A stretch of 37,008 bases of DNA from Anaerolineae bacterium. GTDB lineage: Bacteria; Chloroflexota; Anaerolineae; Aggregatilineales; Phototrophicaceae. The position numbers and the translations under genes were made by a program. Below, piece by piece: positions 16,443 to 35,792 of the stretch (position 1 is the stretch's first letter; every line of letters starts with the position of its first letter). The notes beneath the pieces were generated by a model, which was not told the DNA's origin, ran no database searches, and was given only the letters and a program-made list of their open reading frames with translations. The DNA lies in the NCBI GenBank assembly GCA_022843745.1, contig JALHNB010000064.1, positions 1 through 37,008 on the forward strand, in the 5' to 3' direction.

Positions 16443-17758
16443 CTCCAAGGGTACGGGCTGTTGCTCACCGGATGCAGTTCGCCCTGGCTGAAACGGGCAA
16501 AGCGGAAGGGATAAAGCACCGAACTCGCCTCGCCCATCAGCACGCGCGCGACCTCTTTGCCCACACCGATCATTTTGTAGCCATGATTGCTATCGGCAAT
16601 AACGTAAACGTTGGGCAGCATAAAATCGAATACCGGGAAATTATCCGCTGTGAAAGCGCCGATCCCGCCCGACGGCGACCAATCATAAATCTTGTGACTG
16701 CCTTCAAAGCGCTTCATGCAGTGTGCCAGCCCTGCCGTCCAATAATCGACAAAATCCTCTTTGACTACGTAAAGCTGGCTCTGTGTTCCATAAGGGTCAA
16801 GCTGCGCCGATGTTCCGAGATTTTCTGGCGTTGCCCCGCCCTGGACACCTTGTTTATCCGGCTTGAAATAGATGCCCCACAATTGGTCGGTAATCAGATT
16901 CCCGGTTTTGGTTGAGATCAGCGGTTCGCTGGAATCAATGTGAATCACAGGCGGGACTTTACCTTCAGCCGTCACATAAGTTTTTGGGTCGAAATGTATT
17001 TCACCTTCAGCAAGCCGCCAATACGTCCACATTGGCTGATCTTGTACCACATCGCCGCCAGGTGTGCGGATGTCGATCACGTTGGGCAAACCCAACATCG
17101 TCCAAAGTGACTTAATCCAGGGGCCGGCGCCGATAATCACCTGATCGGCTTCAATCGTACCCTGGTTGGTTTGAATCGCACGCACCAAATCGCCGCGAAT
17201 ATCGAATCCGGTCACTTCGACGCCAGAAAGAATTTTCACGCCCTCCGCTTCCGCTTTAGCCGCCAGCCCAAGCATGGACGCTTTATTGAAAGCAAAACCA
17301 CCTTGTTTTTCATGTAAACAAGCTGTTAAACCCCGTGCTTTCCAATCCGGCAGCATCGCACGCATATAATCATGCACATTTTGTTCGCCTAAAATCAGAT
17401 CGGAACGATAGCCGCTGCGCTGTTGGCGCTCAAAAATCGTTTCGAGGTCATGTTCTTGTACCGGCCCCGCCACCGCCAGATAGCCGACCGGGTTATAGTG
17501 AAAGTCCTCTTGATTTTCTTCCCACACCTCGACGCTGACGCGCATCACTTCGCCCATCGCAGGCTGGAAATAAAAGTTGCGAATCACGCCGCAGGCAATC
17601 CCCGAAGCCCCGGCTGCGACTCCGCTTTTATCCAGTATAACAATATCCTCACCAGAGCCTTTGCCACGTGCTTTTAATTCTTTCGCCAAGTGCCAGGCTG
17701 TGCTGAGTCCATGTACACCCGCGCCGATGACGACGTATTTTTTGAATTTTGGCAGCAT
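16439..17758 (-). CDS. FAD-dependent oxidoreductase, DAO / SoxB-like
   Basis: 439 residues with an N-terminal dinucleotide fold (VVIGAGVHGLSTAWHLAKEL) and a DAO-family FAD motif (GASGIACGVIRNFY). Mid-protein IEADQVIIGAGPWIKSL and C-terminal SPSGGIGAFTADNFPVFD complete the fold. The family oxidises N-methyl or secondary amines (sarcosine, dimethylglycine, amino acids). It is distinct from the other SoxB-like protein of this operon. Being last after the heterotetrameric sarcosine-oxidase genes, it may act on the more methylated intermediate before them. I chose ATG 17758 (GGAG eight to nine bases upstream). The 108-base gap before it contains the 36-bp repeat also found upstream of the SDR gene. 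Substrate unknown. Confidence 0.82.
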   Translation of the reverse strand: MLPKFKKYVVIGAGVHGLSTAWHLAKELKARGKGSGEDIVILDKSGVAAGASGIACGVIRNFYFQPAMGEVMRVSVEVWEENQEDFHYNPVGYLAVAGPVQEHDLETIFERQQRSGYRSDLILGEQNVHDYMRAMLPDWKARGLTACLHEKQGGFAFNKASMLGLAAKAEAEGVKILSGVEVTGFDIRGDLVRAIQTNQGTIEADQVIIGAGPWIKSLWTMLGLPNVIDIRTPGGDVVQDQPMWTYWRLAEGEIHFDPKTYVTAEGKVPPVIHIDSSEPLISTKTGNLITDQLWGIYFKPDKQGVQGGATPENLGTSAQLDPYGTQSQLYVVKEDFVDYWTAGLAHCMKRFEGSHKIYDWSPSGGIGAFTADNFPVFDFMLPNVYVIADSNHGYKMIGVGKEVARVLMGEASSVLYPFRFARFSQGELHPVSNSPYPWS

Positions 17759-17783
17759 AATCACTTCTCCATTAAAATCTGAT

Positions 17784-17819
17784 TTGAACCACAGAGACAC
17801 AGAGAATACAGAGGGAAAA
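17784..17819 (-). repeat. 36-bp repeat (copy A) just upstream of the DAO gene
   Basis: Read on the minus strand it ends CTCTGTGTCTCTGTGGTTCA and lies 26 bases before the DAO start codon. A copy identical at 32 of 36 positions, in the same orientation relative to the next gene, lies at 35732-35767 before the SDR gene. The last 21 bases are identical. Confidence 0.85.
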
Positions 17820-17866: not shown

Positions 17867-18400
17867 TTATTCCGAGAATTCCTGCATCGCGTCGGCGACA
17901 ACATCCCACACATAAGCCGCCAGTGAGACGCTCACGATAAGGTGATAAGTTCGTATATTCTCGTCATCCAGGCGCACGATCAGTGTTCGAACTTTCGCCA
18001 GGCTCGACTGTGCCGAATGCTGATTAGGAAATGCTGAATCTGCGAAATCCAGTCCGCAGATTTTCGGCAGCAAGTCCCGTGCGCCCTCTCCCACCAGCCG
18101 CAATTGCCCATAAGCGTGCGTCATATCGGTGATGGTCGCACGAGTTGCGCCCGCTTCCATTTGCAGCCACTTACCGGCCACATCAACATTCGCGTCCAGC
18201 AGCATATACTGCTCAGGAGTCAGCCGCACGAGTATGCCCTTATCAATGCACTTGACCTCACCAATCCGAATCGTTTGAAAAATCCCGCCCAGATCGCGAC
18301 CACGAATGTCGATTAATCCCCTGCCACTGACATCCGTTAGCGAACCAGCGCTACTTTGCACAGCAGGTGTAGAAATGGGAGATATATAAGGGAGGTTCAT
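17867..18400 (-). CDS. soxG: Sarcosine-oxidase-like gamma subunit
   Basis: 177 residues. The sequence has the SoxG/GcvT-like pattern: VKCIDKGILVRLTPEQYMLL, then TDMTHAYGQLRLVGEGARDL and LPKICGLDFAD near residues 80-130. It ends in the strand-rich VSVSLAAYVWDVVADAMQEF. In heterotetrameric sarcosine oxidase the gamma subunit is a small scaffold without cofactors that contacts the alpha subunit. The gene follows the alpha gene by about 15 bases with its own GGAGCG site, matching the conserved B-D-A-G order. Identification is mainly from this order and the GcvT-like motifs, since gamma subunits diverge quickly. Confidence 0.82.
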   Translation of the reverse strand: MNLPYISPISTPAVQSSAGSLTDVSGRGLIDIRGRDLGGIFQTIRIGEVKCIDKGILVRLTPEQYMLLDANVDVAGKWLQMEAGATRATITDMTHAYGQLRLVGEGARDLLPKICGLDFADSAFPNQHSAQSSLAKVRTLIVRLDDENIRTYHLIVSVSLAAYVWDVVADAMQEFSE

Positions 18401-18415
18401 TTTTACACCGCGCTC

Positions 18416-21322
18416 CTATGAATTGAGTTTGAGGCCATCAGGATCGTAAAATGGCAGCGGCACGACTCGGCCAGTCTTCATTTGGCCGCGCACACGAATC
18501 GTAAATTCCTGCCCCGGCTCGGACATCTCTGTCGGCAACCAGCACAAACCGATCACTTTTTTCAGGGTCGGGCTGCGCCGCACACTGGTGATTCTGCCGA
18601 TAATTTCCAGGCCAATCGGCCCATTTCCTGGTCTTACAATCTGATTGGCTTCTTCAGGTATCGTGCCATCCGGCATCTCAAAGCCGACCAATTTTTTAGT
18701 CACGCCTTTTTGGTTCGCCATCAACAGCGATGCCTTGCCAGTGAAATCCTGTTTGTCCAGCTTGACCGCCCACTCCATCCCTGCCTCAAACGGGTTCGTC
18801 AGGCCATCTGTGTCCTGGCTGACGATAATGTGGCCTTTTTCCAGCCGCAAAATGCGCTGCGCTTCGACACCAAACGGCGTGATTCCAAATTCTTCACCCG
18901 CTTTTAATAGTGCTTCCCAAATATGCAATCCGTAACCGCTTGGTGTGTGTATTTCGTAGCTCAACTCGCCTGTGAAGCCGATACGCAGCAGCAGCACAGG
19001 AATTCCGGCAATTGTTGCCTGACGGACACTCATATAAGGAAAGGCGGCATTGCTCAGATCGACACCCTGTATAATCTTCGCTAGCACATCGCGGGAGCGC
19101 GGCCCGGCCAGATTCATCGCGGCCCGTAAATCCGTCACATTTAGCAGGTGAACGTCATACGACCAACCACTTTGCAAATTCCATTCCATATTTTCGAAAA
19201 TGCCACTTGCGCCGCTGGAGGTCGCTGTCATGTAGTAAAAATCATCATCGAGCCGTGCCGTCACACCATCGTCCAGAACAACGCCCTCTTCAGTGACCAT
19301 CAGGCCATAACGCACGCGCCCAACGTCCAGTTTTTGCCAGCGATTGGTATACACGCGCTCAAGCAAGCCCGGAACGCCCGGCCCACGAAGGTGAAATTTT
19401 CCGAGTGGTGTCACATCGATCAGGCCGACGCGCTCACGCACGGCACGCACTTCCGCGCTCGGATCGCCATAATGATCGGGACGCTTCCACAATCCGGCGT
19501 TCATCATCACCGCGCCATGCTTCACATGCCAGTCGTGCATCGGCGACACGCGCACCGGCTCCATTAGCCGCCCACCAAGCGCCCCCATCGTCACAGGTGT
19601 TACGGGTGGGCGTGAAGTTGTGTTTCCCGTTTCAGCAACGGTTTTCTGATTGTAATGGGCACAGACGTGAATCGCGTTGATGTTACACATCTTGCCCTGG
19701 CACGGCCCCATACTGACCGTACTGTAACGCTTAAGCAGTTCAACGCTGTCAAAGCCTTCTTGGATTGACTGCTTGATCTCCTTGCGCGTCACATCCTCAC
19801 AGATACAAACGAAATCCTTTTTCGCTTCATCTTCGGCGATATGAATTTGCGTCCAGGGGATGCGTTCTGCACGACGTTCTTCAACCTTCGCCGCCAAAAA
19901 CGTAACTTTTTCGATTTTGCCACCAAATCCAGCAAACTGAGCCGCCTGCAAGCCTGCTAACTCACCCTCACGCTCAATATCTTCGAGCAGGTGAGTGGCA
20001 GCCGCCTCCCCAGCAGCAAATACATCCGACGGCAGCATATCGAGGGTGAATTCATGAATTTGCTCGTTCCACCTCAGCTTACCACCTGCCTGAAAAAGCA
20101 GTTGGTTTGCAGGCGTATAGCCAGTCGAAACCAACAGCAGGTCGCATGGAAATTCGTGAATTTGTCCGCTATGGAGCGATTCCAGCGATACACCCTGCAC
20201 TTTGCCAATGCCCCAGGCGCGTTTGATCGTCGTGCGTTTGAAAATCATGACGTGTTCAGCCGACAATTTTCGGATCAAATCGGCATCTGGTTCTTCACGC
20301 ATTTCAGCGAGAGCCTCGATGTGAACCCCTGCCGCAATCAGATCAAGCGCTGCTTGTAGTCCGCGACGATTGGCGGAAACAACTACCGCCCGTGCGCCAG
20401 GTACAACACCCCACAGATGAATCATCCGCTGTACCGCCGAACCAAGCATGATGCCCGGCAGATCATTATTTTCAAACAGCAGCGGAATCTCATACGCGCC
20501 TGTCGCAACGATCAGCGCCTTTGTACGCAGCTTGATAAGCCGGTTTCCAGTTACCGCGCCGACCCAATTGCGGTCGTAGCGGCCTACCGCTGTCGTGTTC
20601 GTCAAAATTTCGACATTCGAAAATCCGACTAATTCCGCAGCCATTTTCGCAACATATTCGTAGGCAGGCAGGCCATCAATTTCATCCATCCTGTAGCGCA
20701 AATGACCGCCAGGTGAGGATTGGTCATCCATCAAAATGACTCGTGCGCCGGATTTCGCTGCTGCCAGTGCTGCCCGCAAACCCGCCGGGCCGCCGCCAAT
20801 CACAGCTACATCAACATGTTTGTAAATTTTGTCAAAATAGCCTGGCTCAGAATCTGGGTCGATTTTGCCGAGTCCTGCTGCTTGGCGCAAGAAGCGTTCA
20901 TACGTCGGCCACAGCGCTTGTGGGCGGATAAACGCTTTGTAATAGAAACCCGCTGGCAAAAAGCTATCTACCAACTGTGTCGCGCTCATCACATCAACAT
21001 CTAACGAGGGCATGGCATTTTGCGCTTCGACTTTCATACCTGCCTGAACAGGGGTTGTGCAGCTTCGCACGTTGGCTTCATCGCCTACTTGTACTAAACA
21101 ATTCGGACAAGCGCCTGCCGCGCAGAGTAAACCCCTCCGGCGGTGGTATTTGAACGAACGACTAAAGGTCATCACCCCCGCCGCCACGAGTGCCGAGGCA
21201 ATCGTATCGCCTTCATAAGCAGTATAGGTTTTGCCATCAAATACGAAATCGACTATTTTTTCGCGGTTAATGACCTGCGAAGGCGTTTCCGGCAGCCGTC
21301 CAACTGCGGCCTGTATTGCCAT
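18416..21322 (-). CDS. soxA: Sarcosine-oxidase-like alpha subunit with two [2Fe-2S] ligand sets
   Basis: 968 residues, the usual size. Domains: ferredoxin-like (about 24-105), NAD/FAD reductase with VAVIGGGPAGLRAALAAAKS (171-190), BFD-like (503-550) and a GcvT-type folate-binding domain (about 590-965). Classical oxidases have lost the ferredoxin cysteines. Here C67-x4-C72-x2-C75-x12-C88 is complete, and the BFD-like region keeps C506-x-C508 and C541-x4-C546. The protein can therefore hold two iron-sulfur clusters, as in the opine- and proline-dehydrogenase or HCN-synthase relatives. That points to a dehydrogenase passing electrons on rather than a simple oxidase. The folate domain implies transfer of the removed methyl carbon to tetrahydrofolate. 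It lies six bases after soxD. Confidence 0.9.
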   Translation of the reverse strand: MAIQAAVGRLPETPSQVINREKIVDFVFDGKTYTAYEGDTIASALVAAGVMTFSRSFKYHRRRGLLCAAGACPNCLVQVGDEANVRSCTTPVQAGMKVEAQNAMPSLDVDVMSATQLVDSFLPAGFYYKAFIRPQALWPTYERFLRQAAGLGKIDPDSEPGYFDKIYKHVDVAVIGGGPAGLRAALAAAKSGARVILMDDQSSPGGHLRYRMDEIDGLPAYEYVAKMAAELVGFSNVEILTNTTAVGRYDRNWVGAVTGNRLIKLRTKALIVATGAYEIPLLFENNDLPGIMLGSAVQRMIHLWGVVPGARAVVVSANRRGLQAALDLIAAGVHIEALAEMREEPDADLIRKLSAEHVMIFKRTTIKRAWGIGKVQGVSLESLHSGQIHEFPCDLLLVSTGYTPANQLLFQAGGKLRWNEQIHEFTLDMLPSDVFAAGEAAATHLLEDIEREGELAGLQAAQFAGFGGKIEKVTFLAAKVEERRAERIPWTQIHIAEDEAKKDFVCICEDVTRKEIKQSIQEGFDSVELLKRYSTVSMGPCQGKMCNINAIHVCAHYNQKTVAETGNTTSRPPVTPVTMGALGGRLMEPVRVSPMHDWHVKHGAVMMNAGLWKRPDHYGDPSAEVRAVRERVGLIDVTPLGKFHLRGPGVPGLLERVYTNRWQKLDVGRVRYGLMVTEEGVVLDDGVTARLDDDFYYMTATSSGASGIFENMEWNLQSGWSYDVHLLNVTDLRAAMNLAGPRSRDVLAKIIQGVDLSNAAFPYMSVRQATIAGIPVLLLRIGFTGELSYEIHTPSGYGLHIWEALLKAGEEFGITPFGVEAQRILRLEKGHIIVSQDTDGLTNPFEAGMEWAVKLDKQDFTGKASLLMANQKGVTKKLVGFEMPDGTIPEEANQIVRPGNGPIGLEIIGRITSVRRSPTLKKVIGLCWLPTEMSEPGQEFTIRVRGQMKTGRVVPLPFYDPDGLKLNS

Positions 21323-21674: not shown

Positions 21675-22910
21675 TTAATGGCCTACCGATGCCGCACCCT
21701 TTTCACCGATTAGCGCACCGTCTTCGAAACGCCCAAGATAAAATGGTGCGATCAAATCCGGCGTGCGGTTCGTAGCAATCAGTTCCGCCATGCGCTTGCC
21801 GCTGACTGGCCCGGCTTTGAAGCCATATGTTCCCCAGCCAACATCTACAACGAAACCCTCAACCGGCGTAAAGCCCATGATCGGACTGTAATCCGGTGTC
21901 ATGTCACAAACCCCTGCCCATTGGCGCAGAATTTTGACGCGCGACAGGCTGGGGAAGAGTTCGAGCATATGTCCGCTGAGGCTTTCGAGAAAGCCGAGCG
22001 TTGAATCGAGCGAATACGACTGATACGGGTCAATTGATGCCCCCATCACTAGCTCACCGCGATCCGACTGGCTGACATAAACATGTAGTGAACCGGAAAC
22101 AATCACAACATCCAGAAATGGCTTCAGTGCTTCACTGACACAGGCTTGCAGTGGATGCGATGTGATCGGCAGTTTCACATCAACCATATCGCAAATCAGC
22201 GAACACCAACCAGCCGTCGCATTTAGCACCATACCGGTTTTGATCGTCCCGCAATTGGTTTGTACCGAGATCACTTTGTTGTTTTCAACGTTGATTCCGG
22301 TGACTTCGGTCAACTGATGAATGTGGACACCGCGCTCATCCGCTCCACGCGCATAGCCCCATACCACCGCATCGTGGCGGATAATGCCGCCCGGCGGGTG
22401 ATAGAGTGCACCGAGAATCGGATAGCGGGGATGTTCGCTCAAATCTAAATGCGGGCAAAGTTTCGCGATTTCATCGGGGTAAATCAGACTGCTGTTCACG
22501 CCTTGAATCTGGTTTACTTCCGCCCGCCAGCGCATCGTCCGCACGGCTGCGTCACTGTGCGCCAACGTCAGATGTCCTCGCTGACTGAACAGCACGTTAA
22601 AATCCAGATCAACCGACAGGTTTTCATAGAGCTTTATGCTCTCATCGTAGAACGCCACACCTTCAGGTGTCAGATAATTCGAACGCAGAATAGTCGTATT
22701 GCGCCCGCTGCCGCCGCTGCCGATATAGCGCTTCTCCAACACCGCCACGTTGGTGATACCGTGATACTTCGCCAGATAATAGGCCGCCGCCAGCCCATGC
22801 ACCCCGCCGCCGATAATTACCACATCGTAGCTGTCCTTCAGGTCGTGCGTGCGCCACATTCGCGGCAGCGGTTTATTGCCATTCAATCCATGCCGAATGA
22901 GTTTCCACAT
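21675..22910 (-). CDS. soxB: Sarcosine-oxidase-like beta subunit (FAD/FMN amine dehydrogenase)
   Basis: 411 residues. N-terminal SYDVVIIGGGVHGLAAAYYL is the FAD fold, followed by GSGGSGRNTTILRSNYLTPE, diagnostic of SoxB-type subunits. Further family segments are YHPPGGIIRHDAVVWGYARG and GVCDMTPDYSPIMGFTPVEG, ending with GWGTYGFKAGPVSGKRMAEL. In the family this subunit carries the amine-oxidising FAD and contacts FMN shared with alpha. It starts three bases after the methyltransferase gene stop, so they are cotranscribed. Together with D, A and G it should N-demethylate a secondary amine such as sarcosine or a larger N-methyl compound. Confidence 0.92.
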   Translation of the reverse strand: MWKLIRHGLNGNKPLPRMWRTHDLKDSYDVVIIGGGVHGLAAAYYLAKYHGITNVAVLEKRYIGSGGSGRNTTILRSNYLTPEGVAFYDESIKLYENLSVDLDFNVLFSQRGHLTLAHSDAAVRTMRWRAEVNQIQGVNSSLIYPDEIAKLCPHLDLSEHPRYPILGALYHPPGGIIRHDAVVWGYARGADERGVHIHQLTEVTGINVENNKVISVQTNCGTIKTGMVLNATAGWCSLICDMVDVKLPITSHPLQACVSEALKPFLDVVIVSGSLHVYVSQSDRGELVMGASIDPYQSYSLDSTLGFLESLSGHMLELFPSLSRVKILRQWAGVCDMTPDYSPIMGFTPVEGFVVDVGWGTYGFKAGPVSGKRMAELIATNRTPDLIAPFYLGRFEDGALIGEKGAASVGH

Positions 22911-22913
22911 GAA

Positions 22914-23954
22914 TTAGCTCTTCTTTTCAAAATCCTGAATATGCCGTTTGTATTTTTCCTTCGACTCGCCCTGTGCGCCCAGAACCGGGTGCATCGAGAG
23001 ATCAGGTGAATAGACGCTGGCAGGCACAGTACGCCCCAACGCTTCAGACATCGCACGGACATGATGTGGCGCTCCACCGCAGCAAATACCAATGAAATTC
23101 ACGCCCAGATCGCGTGCTTTCACGGCAAATTCGGCCATTTCGAATCGGTTCACGAGGAACGGATCAAGTGCTACGGGAAATGCGCGGTTGCCATGTACAT
23201 CTTCCAGCACCTGAAAATAAGGATGATTGTGTGTCGTGTGATATGGGACTGGCTGTGCTGCTACATAACATTTGACTGCCGCGCGTATTTTTTCGAGCAA
23301 ACCAAACATCGTTTCTGGCCCACGGCTGCAATTCAGACCAACCACATCTGCGCCTTCATCCTCCAGAATTTTGCACGCCTCTGCCCAGGGAACGTTATCG
23401 TAAGTGGATTCACCCTTCGCTGCGAACGTCACCATCGCGGTCAATCCTGCTTTCTTGATAACATCGAGTGCGAGTCGCGCTTCGCCCAAATGATTAAATG
23501 TCTCGGCAATGATAAAGTGTGCGCCTTCTTCCTTCGCCCACTGCACTTGTTCCTCAAACATTGGGCGAACCGTTTTCTCACTTTCAGCCGGCTTCTCCGG
23601 GTCAAATTCCCAGGTATTGCAGATATTTCCGGCGACCAGCGCATCGCCCTTCGATGCTACTGTTTTTGCCAGCTTCAGCGCATCGCGATTCAAGCGTTCG
23701 AGGTCGCCCTCTCTACCAATCGCACGCATTTTAGCTCGGTGGCCATAGTAGGTGAACGCAACCATCACCTCCGCTCCAGCACGCAGAAACTCGGTGTGCA
23801 GTTCGATCACGGCCTGCGGATATTCCAGGACGACTTCAGGAACATATGCCCCTGCCTTCAGATAGCCGCGCCGCTCAAGTTCAAACAAATAACCTTCTGC
23901 GCCAATTACCACATCGTTCTTAAGTCGATCCAGTAAGTTCTGTGGTTTCATCAT
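22914..23954 (-). CDS. Betaine-homocysteine-type S-methyltransferase
   Basis: 346 residues from the ATG-ATG pair at 23954/23951, preceded by AAGGAGAGG; the frame is open further upstream, but that extension would run through the operators and is not protein-like. The sequence follows BHMT closely: FELERRGYLKAGAYVPEVVL, ELHTEFLRAGAEVMVAFTYY, EEGAHFIIAETFNHLGEARLAL. The zinc ligands are Cys 209 (GLNCSRGP) and the pair Cys 291-Cys 292 (GICCGG). The family moves a methyl group from betaine (or S-methylmethionine) to homocysteine. First in the operon, before the Sox-like genes, it would take the first methyl from a trimethylammonium substrate, leaving a dimethylamine for the flavoenzymes. The exact donor is not shown. 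Confidence 0.86.
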   Translation of the reverse strand: MMKPQNLLDRLKNDVVIGAEGYLFELERRGYLKAGAYVPEVVLEYPQAVIELHTEFLRAGAEVMVAFTYYGHRAKMRAIGREGDLERLNRDALKLAKTVASKGDALVAGNICNTWEFDPEKPAESEKTVRPMFEEQVQWAKEEGAHFIIAETFNHLGEARLALDVIKKAGLTAMVTFAAKGESTYDNVPWAEACKILEDEGADVVGLNCSRGPETMFGLLEKIRAAVKCYVAAQPVPYHTTHNHPYFQVLEDVHGNRAFPVALDPFLVNRFEMAEFAVKARDLGVNFIGICCGGAPHHVRAMSEALGRTVPASVYSPDLSMHPVLGAQGESKEKYKRHIQDFEKKS

Positions 23955-23978
23955 GCCTCTCCTTCGATTGATAAACAG

Positions 23979-24001
23979 ATTATGCACAAGTATTGCATAA
24001 T
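23979..24001. promoter_or_regulatory. Operator-like palindrome, copy 1 (ATTATGCA-N7-TGCATAAT)
   Basis: Perfect 8-bp inverted arms around a 7-base spacer (CAAGTAT), 25 bases before the methyltransferase start on the minus strand. A near-identical site lies at 24088. On the minus strand TATTAT and CATAAT -10-like sequences fall within or beside it. It is probably the target of the IclR-type regulator encoded at 30822-31601. Confidence 0.72.
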
Positions 24002-24051
24002 ACGCAAGAAAGAGGTACAAACGACACGTGAGTGTGAAAAAAATTACAAAA

Positions 24052-24081
24052 TTGACATTTCGCCCAAGTTGAACATAGAAT
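24052..24081 (+). promoter_or_regulatory. Sigma-70-type promoter for the plus-strand operon
   Basis: TTGACA at 24052-24057 and TAGAAT at 24076-24081 with an 18-base spacer. Transcription should start about 24088, inside the second palindrome and some 70 bases before the binding-protein ATG. This makes repression by a protein bound at that palindrome plausible. Confidence 0.7.
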
Positions 24082-24087
24082 TTGCGC

Positions 24088-24110
24088 ATTATGCACAAGC
24101 CCTGCATAAA
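24088..24110. promoter_or_regulatory. Operator-like palindrome, copy 2 (ATTATGCA-N7-TGCATAA)
   Basis: Shares ATTATGCACAAG and TGCATAA with copy 1; the arms are 7 bp perfect, and the eighth pair is broken. Centre-to-centre distance to copy 1 is 109 bases. It sits just downstream of the TAGAAT -10 box, overlapping the expected start of transcription. Confidence 0.72.
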
Positions 24111-24158: not shown

Positions 24159-25826
24159 ATGAAGTTCGATCTAAAGGCTTTACGAGCGCGCAAGGAGCAA
24201 GTCCAGGAGGCACATTTCGAATACACCCAGGGGAAAATCTCACGGCGGGATTTCCTGCGTTTTTCGTCAATGCTCGGTGCAGGGGCAATGGCTACAGGAC
24301 TACTGTCCCCACTTGAGCGCTTCCAGATGGATCAGGCCAAGCGGCTGCTTGCGCAAGATATGGCACCCACGCGCGGCGGCACGATTGTCAACGCTCTGGG
24401 CATCGACACCACTCGTTTCGATGATCCCGCCCGTCTCAGTCTGGTCTTCCCTTCCAACTATGTGCGTCAGGTTTGCGATTATCTCGTCCGGCTCGATCCC
24501 GAATTAAATTTACAACCTGCGTTGGCCGAAAGCTGGCTGCCTTCCGAAGATGGCCTCACCTGGACGCTCACCCTGCGCCAGGGCGTGAAGTTCAATCACG
24601 GCAAAGATTTTAATGCCGATGATGTCGTGTTCACCATTAATCGCCTGATCGATCCCGAAACCGCCTCCGGTTTTGCAGGTGCGGCCAACTACGTCACAGG
24701 CGCGGAAAAAGTTGATGATTTCACGGTCAATATTCACACGGATCGTGTCGCGGCGGATTTCATTTATTCGTTGTTTCTCTATCAGGCGGCAATTCTGCCC
24801 GCTGACTGGCCGGGTGATTTTTTCACCAATCCCTGGGGAACTGGCCCATTCACCATCGAGGAATTTGCGCCGGGTGAATATATCCGTTTCAAACGCCGCG
24901 AAGATTATTGGATGTTGGGTGCGGACGGCCTGTCTTTACCCTATCTCGACAGCGTTGAATTTGTCAGCTACCCCGATGAGCTTGCCCGCATCAGCGCTTT
25001 GCAGGAAGGTTCGTTACATCTGGCCCCGGCAAGCATCACTTTGATCGACCAGTATCAATCACTGCCTGGTTACGATTTCAAATCGGTACAAACGGGCAAC
25101 CTGCACATCGCCATCATGCAGTTCAACCAGGAACCCTGGACAGACCCCAAAATGCGTGAAGCATTAAAATTGTCGATTGATCGTCAGGCATACGTCGATA
25201 CGCTGTATCTGGGCTATGCGATTCAGGGCGACGATCACCCCATCGCCCCCGGAATGTACCCGCTTGCCCCTGCCGACCAGACACCGCGTCAGCAGGATTA
25301 CGAACAGGCCAGGGCATTATTGGCCGAGGCTGGTTATCCCGACGGCATTGACCTCACCGCACTCTACATTGACCCGGCTAGCGACGGCGGCTTTACCGAA
25401 GGCTTTGCTCTGTTCCTGGCAGCACAAGCCGAACCTGCTGGCATCCGTATCGCCTTGCAGCCCACGCCCGATTACTGGAATATCTGGCTGGATGATTGGG
25501 GTCCAAACCACATCGGCGTCTCCAACTGGGCGCAGAAAAACACTGCTAGCGAAATGTTCAACCTCGCCTATCGTACAGGCAGCGTGTGGAACGAAAGCCA
25601 CTGGAGCAATCCCGAATTCGACGCGCTCCTTGAAGAATTTGACCGCACGCTTGACCAGGAAACGCGAGTTACCCAGCTCGCTCAACTCACCGATATGCTT
25701 TCCAACGACGGCCCGGTGATTGTCCCTGGCTTCCGGCAGGATTTCGCGACGATGGTTTCCAAGCTGCACTACAACCTTCATCCACAGGCGTTTGTCTGGA
25801 TGGCTGATGCCTGGCTCGAACCATAG
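24159..25826 (+). CDS. Tat-exported peptide/opine-type ABC substrate-binding protein
   Basis: 555 residues from the ATG at 24159, which has GAGGAG seven bases upstream. The N-terminus carries a twin-arginine signal: KISRRDFLRF (Arg 29, Arg 30), then a hydrophobic SSMLGAGAMATGLL. The mature part is a family 5 solute-binding protein (DppA/OppA class): YLVRLDPELNLQPALAESWL, TLRQGVKFNHGKDFNADDVV, NPWGTGPFTIEEFAPGEYIR, REALKLSIDRQAYVDTLY. This class binds peptides, opines, amino-sugar conjugates and other mid-size ligands, so the name does not fix the substrate. Tat export suggests folding before export. It is the first plus-strand gene, controlled from the shared divergent region, and so should bring in the substrate of the demethylation operon. 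Confidence 0.9.
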   Translation: MKFDLKALRARKEQVQEAHFEYTQGKISRRDFLRFSSMLGAGAMATGLLSPLERFQMDQAKRLLAQDMAPTRGGTIVNALGIDTTRFDDPARLSLVFPSNYVRQVCDYLVRLDPELNLQPALAESWLPSEDGLTWTLTLRQGVKFNHGKDFNADDVVFTINRLIDPETASGFAGAANYVTGAEKVDDFTVNIHTDRVAADFIYSLFLYQAAILPADWPGDFFTNPWGTGPFTIEEFAPGEYIRFKRREDYWMLGADGLSLPYLDSVEFVSYPDELARISALQEGSLHLAPASITLIDQYQSLPGYDFKSVQTGNLHIAIMQFNQEPWTDPKMREALKLSIDRQAYVDTLYLGYAIQGDDHPIAPGMYPLAPADQTPRQQDYEQARALLAEAGYPDGIDLTALYIDPASDGGFTEGFALFLAAQAEPAGIRIALQPTPDYWNIWLDDWGPNHIGVSNWAQKNTASEMFNLAYRTGSVWNESHWSNPEFDALLEEFDRTLDQETRVTQLAQLTDMLSNDGPVIVPGFRQDFATMVSKLHYNLHPQAFVWMADAWLEP

Positions 25827-25915: not shown

Positions 25916-26863
25916 ATGCTGCGATTCATCCTGCGTCGGTTCGTGACATTGCTGATTACCATGCTGGCGCTCTCGATTCTGATATTTGGCCTATCTGAAG
26001 TGCTACCCATCGAACCCGCGCTGGTGATCCTGGGGCGCGAATCCACGCCGGAAGCACGTGCCGCACTGTCCGAAGAAATGGGATTTAATCGCCCTTTGCC
26101 GGAACGCTACGTCAATTGGCTGGTACGATTTATCAGTGGAGATTGGGGCGATTCGTATCGCCTCGGTGCGCCTATCCAGCCACTCGTCATGCGGCGTTTG
26201 CTCAATTCGACCATTCTCGCAGCATTAGCGCTGCTTATTATCAGTCCGATTTCCCTCTTTCTCGGCGTCATCGCCGGGCTGTATCGCGCCCGTTGGCCGG
26301 ATCGCGCAATTTCCGCCGGGAGCTTGCTCACGATTTCGCTGCCGGATTTTGTCGTCGGCCTCCTGTTGATAATCATTTTCTCTTGGTGGCTCAAGCTGCT
26401 GCCCGCCGATAGCAGCCTGCGCGGTGCAGATATTGACCTTGCCCAGCACTGGCGTAAGCTGATTCTTCCGGCGGTCACAGCGGCCTTCGTGCTGGTCGGT
26501 TATATCACCCGCGTGACGCGCGTCAGCATGATCGAAGTGATGGATTCACCCTATATCCGCACTGCCATTTTGAAAGGCCTGCCCTACCGCACCGTGATTA
26601 TCCGCCATGCCCTGCGCAACGCTTTGATCGCACCGATTGCCATCATCACGACGCAATTCGCCTGGCTCGTTGGCGGTTTAATTATCATCGAACAGCTTTT
26701 TAATTACCCTGGACTCGGCAGTTTATTTGCCGACGCAGCGCGTTCCAATGATTTGCCCATGATCGCAACATCGTCTATGATAACCGTCTCGCTGATCGTA
26801 TTCTCGCAGGTCATCGCCGATGTCCTCTACGGCCTGCTCAATCCGCGCATCCGGTTCAGTTAG
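25916..26863 (+). CDS. ABC transporter permease, DppB type
   Basis: 315 residues. The start MLRFILRRFVTLLITMLALS is the typical first membrane segment of DppB/OppB permeases. Later come GDWGDSYRLGAPI and the EAA-type loop region SPYIRTAILKGLPYRTVIIR with HALRNALIAPI. Then FAWLVGGLIIIEQLFNYPGL and the standard ending VIADVLYGLLNPRIRFS. With the next gene it forms the import channel for the ligand bound by the upstream protein. It is preceded by GAGGG and follows the binding-protein gene after the REP-like hairpin. Confidence 0.92.
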   Translation: MLRFILRRFVTLLITMLALSILIFGLSEVLPIEPALVILGRESTPEARAALSEEMGFNRPLPERYVNWLVRFISGDWGDSYRLGAPIQPLVMRRLLNSTILAALALLIISPISLFLGVIAGLYRARWPDRAISAGSLLTISLPDFVVGLLLIIIFSWWLKLLPADSSLRGADIDLAQHWRKLILPAVTAAFVLVGYITRVTRVSMIEVMDSPYIRTAILKGLPYRTVIIRHALRNALIAPIAIITTQFAWLVGGLIIIEQLFNYPGLGSLFADAARSNDLPMIATSSMITVSLIVFSQVIADVLYGLLNPRIRFS

Positions 26864-26875: not shown

Positions 26876-27754
26876 ATGGATCAATCTTTAGAACCAGTCC
26901 TGAGCCAACCCGTTATACAAAAAAAGAATCTCTGGCAGCGGGTTTTCGCCCTGCGCCGCAATCTGACGGTGCTGCTCGGCGCGAGTATTCTGATTTTTTG
27001 GGTCATCATCGCCATCTTTGCCCCCTCAATTGTTCCTTACGGCATTAACGAAATGGCATCCGGCCAGGTGTGGAAGTCGCCCTCAGTGGAACATCCTTTT
27101 GGCACGGACAACCTGGGGCGAGATATTTTCACGCGCGTCTTGATCGGTGCGCGTCAGATGGTCGTCCTTCCCGCCCTTTCGGTCAGCCTGGCCGTCATCA
27201 TCGGCACCAGCATCGGCCTCCTCTCCGGCTATCGCGGGGGTTGGGTCGATGAAATTATCATGCGTGTCATGGACGCGGTGATGGCCTTCCCGGTGCTGAT
27301 GCTCTACTTGATGATTATAGCGGCGGTGGGCGCGTCCGTCGTCAATGTCGTGATCGCCGTCGCCGTCGCCACAGCCCCGGCAATTTCGCGCCTCGTGCGT
27401 GGGCTGGTGCTGGATTTACGCAGCCGCGAATTTGTCGCCGCCGCCCGGATGCGTGGTGAGCCGACCAGCTATATTTTGTTCCGCGAAATCCTGCCAAACG
27501 CGATCAACCCAATCATGGTGGATGCGCTGGTTCGCATCGGTTATGCCTCATTTTCGATCAGTGCGCTTGGCTTTTTGGGCCTGGGCGTTCCGCCGCCAAA
27601 TCCCGACTGGGGCGGCATGGTCAGTGAAGCCCGCAACGCCCTCATTATCACGCCTACCGCGCCGCTTCTTCCCGCACTGGCGATTGCATCATTGGTGATC
27701 GGCTTCAATCTGCTTGCCGACGGCCTATCCGAAGTGATGAGGACGGAACGATGA
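26876..27754 (+). CDS. ABC transporter permease, DppC type
   Basis: 292 residues with the DppC/OppC architecture: a single helix near residue 40, then PFGTDNLGRDIFTRVLIGAR, the LLSGYRGGWVDEIIMRVMDA segment, the coupling loop FVAAARMRGEPTSYILFREI, and LGFLGLGVPPPNPDWGGMVS. It begins 12 bases after the DppB-type gene and overlaps the ATPase gene by four bases (ATGA), so the genes are translationally coupled. It provides the second half of the membrane channel. Confidence 0.92.
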   Translation: MDQSLEPVLSQPVIQKKNLWQRVFALRRNLTVLLGASILIFWVIIAIFAPSIVPYGINEMASGQVWKSPSVEHPFGTDNLGRDIFTRVLIGARQMVVLPALSVSLAVIIGTSIGLLSGYRGGWVDEIIMRVMDAVMAFPVLMLYLMIIAAVGASVVNVVIAVAVATAPAISRLVRGLVLDLRSREFVAAARMRGEPTSYILFREILPNAINPIMVDALVRIGYASFSISALGFLGLGVPPPNPDWGGMVSEARNALIITPTAPLLPALAIASLVIGFNLLADGLSEVMRTER

Positions 27755-29796
27755 CACCTGTTCTGGACATTCAAAATCTCAACGTCAATTATCACAGTTC
27801 GCGCGGCATCGCCCGTGCTGTGCGTGACCTTTCGCTCACCATCGAGGGCGGCGAGACTTATGGGCTGGTCGGCGAATCCGGCTGTGGCAAATCAACAGTC
27901 GCTCTCTCGATCATGCGCTATCTCCCGCGACAGGCGCAGGACAGCGGCGGAATCCGTTTCCAGGGGCGTGACTTGATGCAAGCACCCGCCGAAGAACTGC
28001 GGCATTTACGCGGCAACCGCATCGCTATTGTCTACCAAGACCCCCAATCCTCGCTGAATCCGGTTTTAACCATAGAGCGTCAGTTAAGCGAAGTAATTGC
28101 TGCCCACGAAGAACATTCCGCATCAGAATCGCGACGGCGTATTCTCGATATGCTCGAACGGGTTCGAATGCCCGATCCGCAGTATATTTTGGGGCGCTAT
28201 CCCCACCAACTCAGCGGCGGAATGCAGCAGCGCATTGTCATCGCGATGGCCTTGCTTTTGCGGCCTGATCTGGTCATCATGGATGAGCCAACGACAGGTT
28301 TGGATGTGACGATTGAGGCGGGCGTTCTCGACATTCTGGACGACCTGCGCCGCGAATTTAAAATGGCGATTCTTTACATCAGCCATAATCTGGGCGTAAT
28401 CGCGCGTATTTGTGACCGTGTAGGCATCATGTATGCGGGCGAACTCATCGAGCAAGCACCCGTAAATGACATTTTTGCACATCCCAGCCACCCTTACACG
28501 CTTGGGCTGCTGCGCTGTGTGCCGCGCCAGGGACTTCGTTATACCAATGAAGCGCTGTACTCAATTCCTGGACGTGTCCCGCCGCTTACAGCGCTCCCGC
28601 AAGGCTGTGCATTTGCGCCGCGCTGTGTGCTGGCCGAATCCGCCTGCACTGCGGCACACCCCCGATTGGAATCGACGGCACAGGATCACAGCGCCCGCTG
28701 TATCCACTGGGAAACAGTCGTTGAGCAGCCAGAGCGCGTCACATTTACACGTCCACTTTCATCTCAGACTGACCAAAATTCGGAGAAAAATTTACTCAAC
28801 GTGCGCGGGTTAAAAGTCTACTTTATGCAGGCGCTTGATGTCCTGGGTATCCGCAAACGCCCCAACATCAAAGTCGTGGACGGCGTGGATTTCGATCTTC
28901 CCGCCCAACGCACACTCGGCGTTGTCGGCGAAAGCGGCTGCGGCAAAAGCACAATTGCTAAGGTTCTGGCGGGCCTAACTCCCGTCACCTCCGGCAAGAT
29001 TGAATTTTCCGGCAGCGATTTTGCCAAACCGATTGAGAGCCGCAGCAGCGATTCATTACAACAGCTACAGATGGTTTTCCAGAATCCCGATTCGTCGCTG
29101 AACCCGCGCCATACGATTTCCCAAACCTTGAGCCGCCCGCTGCGACGCTTTAAAATTGTCCCTCAAGACCAGGAAAACGAGACCATTATCGGGCTGCTGC
29201 GCTCGGTCAATCTGGATGAAAGCTACCTGGATCGTTACCCAAGCCAACTCAGCGGCGGCGAAAAACAACGTGTCGCCATCGCCCGCGCGTTCGCCGGAAA
29301 CCCTGAACTCGTCGTCTGCGATGAGCCAATTTCATCGCTCGACGTTTCCGTACAGGCGGCAGTATTGAATTTGCTGCACGAGTTACAACATCAACGCAAA
29401 GTCGCGCTCGTTTTTATCGCGCACGACCTGAATGTGGTACGCTATATTTCAGATGAAGTAGCGGTTATTTACCTGGGGCGCATTTGCGAAATTGGCCCGA
29501 CAGATCGGATTTTTAGCCCACCATCGCATCCTTATACCGAAGCTTTGATGTCTGCCATTCCCGTAGCTGATCCGAATGCGCAGATCAACCCGATCCGGCT
29601 GTCCGGCAACGTACCCAGCCCGGCCAATCCGCCGACAGGCTGCCATTTTCACACACGCTGCCCGCGCAAAATCGGCGCGATCTGTGAAACGCATGAGCCG
29701 CCAGCGCAGGAGGCGGGCGACAATCACAAAATTTTCTGCCACATCCCGCTTGACGAACTACGGGTGCTGCAAACCGATGTGATGGTCAAAATGTAA
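27751..29796 (+). CDS. Fused double ABC ATPase (DppD-DppF type)
   Basis: 681 residues holding two complete ATP-binding cassettes in one chain. The first has Walker A GESGCGKST in its first 60 residues, signature LSGGMQQR and Walker B LVIMDEPTTGLD. The second has GESGCGKST near residue 390, LSGGEKQR and LVVCDEPISSLD. Each cassette ends with the oligopeptide-transporter tail containing conserved cysteines (CAFAPRC, CHFHTRCPRK), which in DppD/DppF can bind an iron-sulfur cluster. Most relatives use two separate genes, so this is a natural fusion that fixes a 1:1 ratio. It powers the importer formed with the two upstream permeases. Confidence 0.93.
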   Translation: MTPVLDIQNLNVNYHSSRGIARAVRDLSLTIEGGETYGLVGESGCGKSTVALSIMRYLPRQAQDSGGIRFQGRDLMQAPAEELRHLRGNRIAIVYQDPQSSLNPVLTIERQLSEVIAAHEEHSASESRRRILDMLERVRMPDPQYILGRYPHQLSGGMQQRIVIAMALLLRPDLVIMDEPTTGLDVTIEAGVLDILDDLRREFKMAILYISHNLGVIARICDRVGIMYAGELIEQAPVNDIFAHPSHPYTLGLLRCVPRQGLRYTNEALYSIPGRVPPLTALPQGCAFAPRCVLAESACTAAHPRLESTAQDHSARCIHWETVVEQPERVTFTRPLSSQTDQNSEKNLLNVRGLKVYFMQALDVLGIRKRPNIKVVDGVDFDLPAQRTLGVVGESGCGKSTIAKVLAGLTPVTSGKIEFSGSDFAKPIESRSSDSLQQLQMVFQNPDSSLNPRHTISQTLSRPLRRFKIVPQDQENETIIGLLRSVNLDESYLDRYPSQLSGGEKQRVAIARAFAGNPELVVCDEPISSLDVSVQAAVLNLLHELQHQRKVALVFIAHDLNVVRYISDEVAVIYLGRICEIGPTDRIFSPPSHPYTEALMSAIPVADPNAQINPIRLSGNVPSPANPPTGCHFHTRCPRKIGAICETHEPPAQEAGDNHKIFCHIPLDELRVLQTDVMVKM

Positions 29797-29811
29797 AATC
29801 ATTCATGTATC

Positions 29812-30032
29812 GTAGGGGCGCACAGCCGTGCATACGCATTAAGCTAAGACATTTTGAGGGTAAAACAGGCTGGAAAAGGTACTTTTTGAACCTATCATCC
29901 ACTGCTTTACGCCGTTTTTATGGTCGCTTTTGGGCTTTTGCAGCGAGAATCGTTGCAGCTTTGTGCCTAAAAAGCGCTCAAAAACGGGTTTAATTCCTTA
30001 GCTTAATGCCAATGCACAGCCGTGCGCCCTAC
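29812..30032. mobile_element. 221-bp MITE-like element with ~36-bp imperfect terminal inverted repeats
   Basis: The left end begins GTAGGGGCGCACAGCCGTGC and runs to CATTAAGCTAAG (29848). The right end, CTTAGCTTAATG to GTGCGCCCTAC (30032), is its reverse complement with one indel and about four mismatches. Only non-coding sequence lies between. The outer halves belong to the GTAGGGG hairpin family, while the inner part looks like separate DNA. With no coding capacity it would depend on a transposase elsewhere. It fills most of the 326-base gap between the transporter and amidotransferase genes. Confidence 0.65.
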
Positions 30033-30052
30033 AACAACGACAATTCGTATTC

Positions 30053-30077
30053 GTAGGGGTAGGTCTGAGACCTGCCC
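30053..30077. repeat. GTAGGGGTAGGTC hairpin (REP-like)
   Basis: Stem GGGTAGGTC/GACCTGCCC (one G-T pair) with a 3-base loop at 30057-30077, preceded by the GTAGGGG family start. It lies 45 bases before the amidotransferase ATG. Confidence 0.65.
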
Positions 30078-30122
30078 AATAGAAACAAACGACAATTAGG
30101 ATTTTAATCGCGGAGACAAACT

Positions 30123-30815
30123 ATGCTGGCATTTGTCAATATTCAACACGAAAAGCTCGTTTACGACCCCAAAGTCGGGCCACCGCACCTCAAAGAACTT
30201 CAACAGCGTGCGGACAACATCGGCGCGGCGGTTGGGCTGCCGTGTGTCCCTGTCCATTATCGCGATTTCAGCCTCGACTGGATGCGTACTAACGGGATCA
30301 AAGCCTTTTTTATCAGCGGCAATACGCCAGATTGGTTCGAATACGATTGGGAAAATTTTAAACCTTTGCAGGAAGCGGTATGCAGCGGCGAATATCCGGT
30401 CATGGGATTTTGCGGCGGGCATCAGCTTATCGGCATGACCTACGGCGCACCCTGCGACGCATTGGGGCCGCTTGAACCCGGCGAAACCGACCTGATGCCA
30501 GACTATCATCCAGGGATGCGTAAAGAGCGCGGTTATCTACCGCTGAAAATCGAAGTTCCTGAACATCCAATTTTCGATGGTTTCCAGCCATCCGGCCCAG
30601 TTATCCTGGAAAGCCATTATTGGGAGATCAAAGGTCTACCAAACGAGTTTGAACTGCTGGCATCGACTAACTGGTGCCGTGTCCAGCTCATGCAGCACCG
30701 CGAACTGCCCATCTACGGCACGCAGGGACACCCGGAGGCCTACACCGAGCAGTATCCTGACGGCAAACGCCTGATTCGGAATTTCGCGCTGGAGACAGGG
30801 GTTATCAAGCCGTAA
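30123..30815 (+). CDS. Stand-alone class I glutamine amidotransferase-like protein
   Basis: 230 residues comprising just a class I glutaminase domain. The nucleophile elbow is VMGFCGGHQLIG (Cys 97) and the second part of the triad is QGHPEAYTE (His 203, Glu 205). An oxyanion-type FFISGNTPDW strand-turn lies near residue 62. Class I domains normally feed ammonia to a synthetase; none is encoded nearby, so it more likely hydrolyses a gamma-glutamyl or other amide, as PuuD-like relatives do. A GGAG site precedes the ATG. It opens the second half of the plus-strand cluster and sits seven bases ahead of the IclR gene. The substrate is unknown. Confidence 0.82.
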   Translation: MLAFVNIQHEKLVYDPKVGPPHLKELQQRADNIGAAVGLPCVPVHYRDFSLDWMRTNGIKAFFISGNTPDWFEYDWENFKPLQEAVCSGEYPVMGFCGGHQLIGMTYGAPCDALGPLEPGETDLMPDYHPGMRKERGYLPLKIEVPEHPIFDGFQPSGPVILESHYWEIKGLPNEFELLASTNWCRVQLMQHRELPIYGTQGHPEAYTEQYPDGKRLIRNFALETGVIKP

Positions 30816-30821: not shown

Positions 30822-31601
30822 ATGGTCAAAAAAAATTCGAAACAAGAGAGTGGGTCGATTCAATCTGTCGAGCGTGCGTTGAGCATCCTCTTTATGCTGG
30901 CGGAAGCTGAGTCGCCGTTGACTGTCGGACAAGTCGCCGAAAAATTGGATGTCCACAACAGCACCGCCTCGCGCCTGCTCAGTACCCTGGCGCAGCAAAA
31001 CGTCGTCGTCCAGAATCGCAGCGGCTACCAGCTTGGGTTGGGGCTGCTGCATCTGTCACACGTTGTTCTGAGCGAGATGACCATTCGCAACCGCGCACAT
31101 CCCCATTTACAGCAGCTTTCCCGCGAAACGGGTCATACGGTCTATCTGGCGACTCTTTTTAACGGTGTCGAACTCTACCTGGACGAGGTGAACGCGAACG
31201 ACGGAATCTCGCGACCTGTCTGGATCGGGCGCACGATTCCCGCGCATACCGCCAGCAGCGGCAAAGTGCTTCTCGCCTATCTGCCCGAAGATGAGTTGGC
31301 AAACTATATTGGGCAAGGCTTGACGGCAAATACGCGCTCTACGATCACCGACGCGGTTCAACTGCGCGAACAGTTAAGCCTGATTCGAGGACGGGGTTAT
31401 GCCACCAGCCGGGACGAATACATGATCGGTTTCAGCAGTGTTGCCGCGCCAATTTTTGATCGCTCCGGCCAGAACACCGCCGTCGTCACGCTCTCCGGTG
31501 CGACTTCGCAGCTTTCGCTGAAACGCCTCGATGAACTCGCCCCGCTGGTCATTGCTAGCGGAAACGCAATTAGCCTGGAACTGGGCTACAAACCGTCATA
31601 A
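30822..31601 (+). CDS. IclR-family transcriptional regulator
   Basis: 259 residues: an N-terminal winged helix (SVERALSILFMLAEAESPLT, then VGQVAEKLDVHNSTASRLLS, about residues 13-65) and the C-terminal IclR effector domain (about 80-255). Effector-domain landmarks include GHTVYLATLFNGVELYLDEV, HTASSGKVLLAYLP, RGYATSRDEYMIGFSSVAAP and IFDRSGQNTAVVTLSGATSQ. The family binds palindromes as dimers or tetramers and senses small catabolic acids. It is the only regulator in regions 4-5 and is the natural candidate for the paired palindromes at 23979 and 24088. Its start follows the amidotransferase stop by six bases with no strong ribosome site, suggesting coupling. Confidence 0.92.
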   Translation: MVKKNSKQESGSIQSVERALSILFMLAEAESPLTVGQVAEKLDVHNSTASRLLSTLAQQNVVVQNRSGYQLGLGLLHLSHVVLSEMTIRNRAHPHLQQLSRETGHTVYLATLFNGVELYLDEVNANDGISRPVWIGRTIPAHTASSGKVLLAYLPEDELANYIGQGLTANTRSTITDAVQLREQLSLIRGRGYATSRDEYMIGFSSVAAPIFDRSGQNTAVVTLSGATSQLSLKRLDELAPLVIASGNAISLELGYKPS

Positions 31602-31614
31602 AGGAACAAGCAGT

Positions 31615-32964
31615 GTGAGTGCCATCATCGAATTTACCCACAACCTGAAATTTAACGACCTCCCTGACGACGTGATTCATCAGGCGCAGCGCTGTCTGCT
31701 TGACCTGATCGGCACAGCTGCGGGCGGATATACCACGCCTGTATCGCGCATCACTCGTAATTTCGCCGTGCGCCATATGGGTGGCAGCGACTCCCGGCTG
31801 ATTTTTGATGGCAGGCGGGCAAGTCCCGGCGGCGTCGCACTGGCTGGTGGCACGATGATCGACAGTATGGATTGTCACGACGGCCACGTTCTCACCAAAG
31901 GCCACATGGGAGTCGCGGTTTTCCCGGCGCTCCTGGCGCTCATCGACAGTGAAGGCGAAATCGACAATCGCGAATTCATCACGTCGCTGGTCATCGGCTA
32001 CGAGATCGCTACCCGTGCCGGAATCGCACTCCACGCCACAGCCTGTGATTATCACAGTTCCGGCGCATGGAACGCCCTGGCCTGTGCCGCGCTCGGCGCA
32101 CGTTTCCTGAAAATGAACGCCGATAAAACCCGCCATGCGCTCGGAATCGCGGAATATAACGGCCCGCGCAGCCAGATGATGCGCTGTATTGATGACCCGA
32201 CGATGGTTAAAGATGGTTCTGGCTGGGGTGCAATGACAGGCTTGAACGCCGCCTATCTCGCCGCTGATGGCTTCACAGGCGCGCCCGCTATAACGGTTGA
32301 AAATACCGAAGTTGCTGCCATTTGGTCGGACTTGGGGAACCGCTGGCGCATCCGCGAACAATATTTCAAGGCTTACCCAGTCTGCCGTTGGGCACAGCCC
32401 GCCATTGAAGCCGCCAGCAGCCTGCAAAGAGCTTATCAGATCGCCGCAAATGACATTCAGCAGGTTGAGGTTTTCACCTTCCACGAAGGCACACGCCTGG
32501 CAACGCGCTGCCCGGAAACCACTGAAGAAGCGCAATACAGCCTGCCCTTCCCGGTGGCAGCGATGCTCACCCATGAGCAAATCGGCGCGGGCGAAGTGAC
32601 TGGAGACAGCCTGTATGATCCTGCCATTTTGCGCCTCTCCAATTCGACAATTTTGACTGAATCCGAAACCTATAACGCACGTTTTCCGGCAGAGCGTTGG
32701 GCACATGTGGCGTTTACGCTTACGGATGGGACACATTTGACATCCGAACCCGCCATCGCACGTGGCAACCCCGAAAATCCACTCACTGATGACGAAATCA
32801 CAAAAAAGTTTTATCTTCTAGCGAATCCGGTGTTAGGTACAGACCGCGCACAGCGAATCGCGGTGCTGGTTTCGCAGCTTGCCGATGCGCCGGAAGCGCT
32901 CAATGAACTGCGACAGCTTTTATTTGACCCTGTAATGGGAGAACACAATGCAGAAAAAGATTAG
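31615..32964 (+). CDS. MmgE/PrpD family protein
   Basis: 449 residues from a GTG at 31615 with AAGGA ten bases upstream; the frame is open earlier, but that part lies inside the IclR gene. Family landmarks: VIHQAQRCLLDLIGTAAGGY, GGTMIDSMDCHDGHVLTKGH (residues ~85-105), CAALGARFLKMNADKTRHAL and GIAEYNGPRSQMMR. The later YFKAYPVCRWAQPAIEAA corresponds to the C-terminal catalytic lid of the family. Known members dehydrate 2-methylcitrate, decarboxylate cis-aconitate or epimerise iminodisuccinate, all on small polyacids. The activity here is undetermined. The gene end overlaps the GH4-like gene by 17 bases. Confidence 0.88.
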   Translation: MSAIIEFTHNLKFNDLPDDVIHQAQRCLLDLIGTAAGGYTTPVSRITRNFAVRHMGGSDSRLIFDGRRASPGGVALAGGTMIDSMDCHDGHVLTKGHMGVAVFPALLALIDSEGEIDNREFITSLVIGYEIATRAGIALHATACDYHSSGAWNALACAALGARFLKMNADKTRHALGIAEYNGPRSQMMRCIDDPTMVKDGSGWGAMTGLNAAYLAADGFTGAPAITVENTEVAAIWSDLGNRWRIREQYFKAYPVCRWAQPAIEAASSLQRAYQIAANDIQQVEVFTFHEGTRLATRCPETTEEAQYSLPFPVAAMLTHEQIGAGEVTGDSLYDPAILRLSNSTILTESETYNARFPAERWAHVAFTLTDGTHLTSEPAIARGNPENPLTDDEITKKFYLLANPVLGTDRAQRIAVLVSQLADAPEALNELRQLLFDPVMGEHNAEKD

Positions 32965-35734: not shown

Positions 35735-35767
35735 TCTCTCTGTGCCCTCTGTGTCTCTGTGGTTCAA
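35732..35767 (+). repeat. 36-bp repeat (copy B) just upstream of the SDR gene
   Basis: Ends CTCTGTGTCTCTGTGGTTCA and lies 25 bases before the SDR start. It matches copy A (17784-17819, opposite strand) at 32 of 36 positions and has the same orientation and almost the same distance to the following gene. Confidence 0.85.
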
Positions 35768-35792
35768 TTTATTCTCAGGAGAAACACACACT

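Follow-up and report, generated by a model that had tools for sequence, protein, structure and literature searches.

Two palindromic sites lie between two divergently transcribed operons in the window (the whole 37,008-nucleotide stretch of DNA that was analyzed), raising the questions of which protein reads them and which operon they control. Both 23-bp sites that an earlier note on this DNA had described, 109 bp apart at 23979–24110, were found in place: a distal one, ATTATGCA-N7-TGCATAAT, at 23979–24001 with 0 mismatches, and a proximal one, ATTATGCA-N7-TGCATAAA, at 24088–24110 with 1 mismatch. Each consists of two boxes (B and C) and neither is assigned to a strand; the 109 bp is the centre-to-centre spacing.

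Position and conservation of the palindromes

By scanning the window for ATTATGCA-N7-TGCATAAT with up to 3 mismatches, the two sites were recovered as the sole 2 matches, in agreement with the earlier note, which had noticed no further copy; shuffled windows gave a mean of 0.16 matches, and 2 of 100 shuffles reached two. The genome-wide scan that the note had proposed as a check (7.96 Mb, 117 contigs) yielded no additional copy at 0–1 mismatch and six weak others at 2 mismatches. When two TGCA-N7-TGCA pairs were sought across the class under looser conditions, 12 of 396 genomes matched, the window's own among them. Pair matches beyond the window were taken as chance, since none displayed continues with a TAA arm after the first TGCA pair, the displayed stretches starting at the first TGCA.

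Downstream of the sites, the presumed regulated operon begins on the plus strand with a gene for a substrate-binding protein (SBP_bac_5, 24159–25826), followed by the permeases (25916–26863 and 26876–27754) and the double ATPase (oppDF, 27751–29796) of a peptide/nickel-type ABC transporter and by a glutamine amidotransferase-like gene (30123–30815), which ends 6 bp before the gene of an IclR-family regulator with HTH_IclR and IclR_C domains (30822–31601), the presumed operator reader. The cluster continues on this strand with MmgE/PrpD (longest ORF 31531–32964, the true start probably lying after the IclR stop), GH4 (32948–34297), a class III aminotransferase (34326–35645) and, at its end, an SDR (35742–36566). 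Between the ATPase and amidotransferase genes lies a gap of 326 bp (29797–30122), compared with about 30 bp in the related genome G057, so it is uncertain whether, in the window, IclR is transcribed together with the binding-protein gene. Repeated GTAGGG-type phrases occupy this gap.

On the minus strand, the divergent operon starts with a homocysteine S-methyltransferase-family gene (22914–23951) and continues with a soxB-like DAO (21675–22910), soxA-like (18416–21322) and soxG-like (17867–18400) genes and a further DAO (16439–17800). The whole cluster (16439–36566) thus brings together sarcosine-oxidase-like, homocysteine S-methyltransferase-family, peptide/nickel-type transporter and GH4 genes; its substrate is not obvious, and our guess would be, perhaps, a glycosylated N-methyl compound. 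Elsewhere in the window, a phage-integrase-family gene (14746–15657) separates the sox part from an SBP_bac_8 transporter part, and a minus-strand reading frame of 1156 aa (1801–5271) has no Pfam match at E ≤ 0.001.

A strong promoter-like sequence for the binding-protein operon, TTGACA-N18-TAGAAT with 11 of 12 consensus letters, is located between the two sites at 24052–24081 on the plus strand. As the earlier note had proposed for the second site, the proximal operator, whose full extent is given below, covers the expected transcription start and directly adjoins the −10 hexamer here; its counterpart in G057 overlaps with TATTAT, the −10 sequence there. The note had also read an opposite-strand −10 sequence in the first site, which proved to be merely the operator arm CATAAT, and no minus-strand promoter passed the promoter scan. 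A weak plus-strand match, TAAACA-18-CATAAT (23972–24001), overlaps the distal site.

Binding-protein orthologues at about 70% identity or above were found in six other genomes. Two of these, G057 and G060, hold both palindromes upstream of the binding-protein gene, with 1 mismatch each and 86 bp apart, and these are the only 0–1 mismatch sites in either genome, so that the phylogenetic footprinting suggested by the earlier note found both sites kept before the orthologous operon. Their clusters retain the binding-protein, transporter, amidotransferase, IclR, MmgE and GH4 genes, with two extra genes between IclR and MmgE in G060, and the two genomes were counted as one lineage because they are nearly identical at this place. 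Across the six sites of the three genomes the N7 spacer varies. The CAAG shared by both spacers in the window, to which the note had drawn attention, is missing in G057 and G060 and was rejected as a recognition element, the palindromes themselves being real. Beside the orthologous cluster, PhyH and GH116 genes were seen in G057 and an MTTB-family gene lies upstream in G101.

Three-box structure of the operators

Alignment of the six sites, with the promoter-facing side to the right, gave the arm TGCAYAAT followed by R-CGCAA, in which the inner flank TTGCG (CGCAA) is invariant in 6/6 sites. Among the four distinct site rows this is a 5-column invariant run in 16 columns; drawing rows at random 100,000 times from the same intergenic regions produced 0 such runs. 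Together with the adjoining arm, the inner flank forms a 15-bp motif, TTGCRY-W3-RYGCAA, which occurs with 0 mismatches at 23993–24007, with 1 mismatch at 24082–24096, and without a mismatch at either site of G057 and of G060. At ≤1 mismatch the window holds 2 matches, against a mean of 0.12 for 149 half-site permutations.

The sites named in the earlier note as palindromic operators are thus confirmed in position and revised in extent, since the conserved inner flank makes each a three-box structure of which the first-described palindrome is the outer box pair. The distal operator, TTGCGTATTATGCA-N7-TGCATA, spans 23981–24007 on the minus strand with 0 mismatches and contains the 15-bp pair at 23993–24007; the proximal one, TTGCGCATTATGCA-N7-TGCATA, spans 24082–24108 on the plus strand and contains the pair at 24082–24096 (1 mismatch). 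The direction of the third box alternates, and on either side of the promoter the operators mirror each other, an inverted orientation that is conserved, with pair centres 89 bp apart in the window and 66 bp apart in G057.

Through the pattern TTGCRYWWWRYGCA-N5-7-TGCRYA the sites fit the IclR three-box operators with an alternating third box, and through TTGCRY-W3-RYGCAA the IclR-type architecture with TphR-type boxes. The published group 1 (GKTYCRYW3-4RYGRAMC) and group 2 (TGRAACAN1-2TGTTYCA) consensus strings were absent at 0–1 mismatch from the window, the G057 contig and the G060 stretch, where group 1 was scanned with W3, the WTT-11-AAW form was included and both group 2 spacings were used; the nearest match at the sites, in G057 and G060, had 2 mismatches to the WTT-11-AAW form. 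According to the available part of PMC8222616, IclR sites are mostly centred at −20 to −80 from the gene start, and in the window the pair centres fall inside this zone, 70 bp from the start codon of the binding-protein gene and 49 bp from that of the methyltransferase gene. The distal site of G057, at 160 bp from a PhyH gene, lies outside the zone given there.

The IclR protein and the distribution of its candidate operators

The IclR protein (259 aa) scored 51.3 bits for HTH_IclR (cut-off 22) and 141.1 bits for IclR_C (cut-off 24), and with both domains and a length of about 250 aa it is a member of the IclR-family transcription factors. It is the sole IclR_C protein detected in its genome. 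Its orthologues in G057 and G060, which belong to another genus of the same family, have about 64% identity, and the best other IclR homologue among the matches listed reached 39% (151 genomes searched). The recognition-helix segment, residues 44–64, is identical in the three orthologues. A genome-collection scan with the IclR alignment, which used two exact peptide patterns and so reaches close relatives only, confirmed 2 of 31 candidate stretches, and these were the two known relatives, Anaerolineae MAGs. A literature search for this regulator found no publication on it.

Five residues of E. coli IclR, G160, A161, D212, S239 and S241, are given as glyoxylate/pyruvate-binding in Table 1 within the available part of PMC11323563. 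At these positions our protein has S, S, S, T and S in the alignment to chain 2o99, as read by eye and with the register of the E. coli numbers on the alignment counted by ourselves. As only 1 of the 5 oxygen-binding residues named in that part is kept, the protein falls outside the glyoxylate/pyruvate-sensing IclR/AllR type and a different effector is likely. From the pocket residues so read, glyoxylate as the effector was judged unlikely.

Next to the three genomes that hold both operators stand G041, G062 and G101, in which the operon order is kept, with MmgE directly following the amidotransferase gene and no IclR gene at that position; in all three, IclR_C proteins are encoded elsewhere in the genome. 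At 0 mismatches, the three-box pattern occurs exactly twice, once per orientation, in the window genome (G000), G057 and G060, and 0 times in the genomes of G041, G062 and G101, and a reversed-pattern control gave 0 in all six. G028 was left out of this count, its contig ending inside the binding-protein gene before the promoter. The regulator gene and the operators are thus present or absent together, the operon itself being unchanged, which amounts to a natural experiment, and since the three positive clusters represent two lineages only, the contrast rests on few evolutionary events. A class-wide binding-protein search at E ≤ 1e-140 in 396 genomes, of low sensitivity with three candidates scored per genome, found the window's own genome only.

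Upstream of the binding-protein gene, G041 (L066) and G062 (L067) have in common inverted-repeat-like TCACCTGTCCTACAGGTGA and TTGTAGGATAGGTTACAG about the same promoter region, which are perhaps operators of a replacement regulator. In G101 (L071, L072) several operon genes, such as those of the binding protein and the ATPase, are split across two frames, probably through assembly errors.

The motif was then sought in 94.8 kb of sequence made up of 27 other IclR-gene loci (L008–L034), each with flanks of at most 1.5 kb. At ≤1 mismatch, the 15-bp motif gave 11 matches in 8 of the 27 loci, 19 being without it, and 100 permuted motifs gave a mean of 0.32 and a maximum of 6, none reaching 11; the two best permuted motifs, with matches in 6 and 5 loci, were close variants of the real one. 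The distance to the matched IclR stretch is 25–107 bp for all 11 matches, of which six are on its 5′ side and five on its 3′ side. By our own reading of the IclR alignment, a recognition helix containing SASR is present in 18 of the 27 loci, and the 8 motif-bearing loci are all within these 18 (10/18 without motif), compared with 0/9 among the loci without SASR. Because some of these loci are orthologous, the independent cases are fewer than these counts.

An order-wide scan of 154 genomes found the three-box pattern in 8 genomes beyond the three, and the reversed control gave 2 matches. Two of them, G038 and G054, have the site at a distance of 64 bp from the stretch matched in an IclR paralogue. 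It falls there between the paralogue and the beginning of the gene that follows (L091, 7871–7897, in G038; L090, 7514–7540, in G054), which by its N-terminus resembles a Gfo/Idh/MocA-type dehydrogenase. In the other six (G065, G049, G017, G082, G107 and G139) the fetched flanks hold no IclR match, and these six matches count against a strict specificity of the motif. G049, G017 and G082 have near-identical stretches at the match, a likeness that suggests one orthologous, probably coding place.

Probable regulatory role and comparison with known systems

Taken together, we consider it probable, with good confidence, that the palindromes are parts of mirror-image three-box operators of the cluster-encoded IclR protein, which would act as a feedback repressor of the SBP-opp-GAT-IclR promoter. 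The IclR protein as reader, which the earlier note had already named as probable, is well supported at the sequence level by the footprinting, by a three-box pattern that tracks the IclR gene and by a 15-bp motif adjoining IclR genes in 8 of 27 other loci. Sequence comparison itself shows that the sites are conserved, how their motif is built, that they go along with the IclR gene and that the motif also stands near further IclR genes; from this we infer binding and its consequences as follows. An IclR dimer or tetramer would bind the operators, with the 15-bp pair facing the promoter and the third box on the far side. Repression of the binding-protein promoter is likely, because IclR bound at the proximal operator, directly next to the −10 hexamer in the window and overlapping with it in G057, would occlude RNA polymerase. 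An effector, probably a metabolite of the pathway, would release IclR and free the promoter, and IclR, if co-transcribed, would control the operon carrying its own gene. The distal operator would strengthen repression and, in this organism, might control the divergent methyltransferase/sarcosine-oxidase-like operon as well. The locus would thus hold functional-looking operators of an ordinary feedback circuit, unusually well supported.

That the sites are chance occurrences or a non-regulatory repeat is scarcely credible. Two matches at 3 mismatches did also arise in the few window shuffles mentioned above, but both sites are kept at the same place in another genus where the spacer and much of the flank have diverged, and the longer three-box pattern is restricted to these places in the six genomes searched. 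It is also quite improbable that a regulator other than IclR reads them, although the two-box palindrome as first described mismatches the IclR consensus strings in the available part of PMC8222616: the three-box pattern co-occurs with the IclR gene, the 15-bp motif stands beside other IclR genes and is like the TphR motif printed there, and a Pfam scan of 24 reading frames of the window turned up no other stand-alone transcription-factor gene, a hybrid kinase at 9920–13507 carrying an AraC-type HTH and 14746–15657 being the integrase. Activation by IclR from the distal operator appears unlikely rather than far-fetched. The distal operator does lie upstream of the −35 element, the family includes activators and dual regulators (PMC8222616, available part), and BhcR acts as an activator in vivo (PMC11323563, available part), because of which the sign of regulation could be opposite; the position of the proximal operator at the −10 hexamer nevertheless favours occlusion.

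A further reading, compatible with feedback repression by IclR and possible though somewhat less than even in our estimate, is that the region is a shared control region through which IclR co-regulates methyltransferase/sarcosine-oxidase-like catabolism and transport, possibly by a DNA loop. Each operator lies at a typical IclR distance from the adjacent start codon (49 and 70 bp; PMC8222616, available part), the inverted orientation is conserved, and G041 and G062 likewise carry both gene sets in a single cluster, so that these plausibly belong to one pathway. Against this, at E ≤ 1e-60 no methyltransferase homologue was matched in G057 and G060, which keep both sites, so the divergent operon cannot explain the conservation of the pair, and the pair is not the strong evidence of one regulon that the earlier note had seen in it. 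The divergent gene of G057 is a PhyH-family dioxygenase beginning 160 bp from the distal site (the G060 contig ends before any divergent gene is visible), and in the window the promoter scan passed no minus-strand promoter. With 109 bp between the palindromes here and 86 bp in G057 and G060, the spacings differ by about 2.2 helical turns, not a whole number, so strict helical phase is not kept and the spacing lends no support to a strictly phased loop, though looping may still occur. Control of the divergent operon by IclR in this organism is plausible. More speculatively, and with considerable doubt on our part, the six boxes in mirror order may make up a conserved device: a single IclR oligomer would span the two operators and silence the enclosed promoter, spacings of 86 and 109 bp being tolerated, and regulator and operators would be swapped as a unit when related clusters change their regulator.

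With IclR as the probable feedback repressor reading three-box operators, several known systems can be set beside this one. Like BhcR of Paracoccus denitrificans, our protein is of the IclR family, is encoded beside a catabolic cluster and has a candidate palindromic site near divergent promoters, and BhcR is its top-scoring NCBIfam model; unlike BhcR, it scores 155 bits, far under the cut-off of 350, and its ligand residues are mostly changed compared with E. coli IclR. The TphR operator of Comamonas, TTTTTGCGCATAGCGCAAAAA among the published IclR sites in the available part of PMC8222616 (Table 1), has the same box letters (TTTGCGC-ATA-GCGCAAA compared with TTGCRY-W3-RYGCAA), whereas the present sites have an additional third box and enclose one promoter as a pair of operators, and the cluster gives no sign of a terephthalate role. 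Three-box sites are predicted for 32 orthologous groups in that same part, and with these as well as with PcaU, PobR and HmgR our operators share three boxes of alternating direction and similar spacing, the gaps here being 3 and 3 bp by a hand count with the boxes as 7-mers. They differ from the consensus published there in having G and C where it has Y and R, and in their mirror orientation, the 15-bp pair centres being separated by 89 bp in the window and by 66 bp in G057, and not tandem at 18–22 bp. The share of Chloroflexi in every motif class of Table 2 in the available part of PMC8222616 is 0–3%. For Anaerolineae-type bacteria, in which few IclR motifs have been described, a concrete candidate regulator–operator pair is thereby gained, and TTGCRY-W3-RYGCAA can serve as a working motif for the IclR proteins of this order with an ASR recognition helix.
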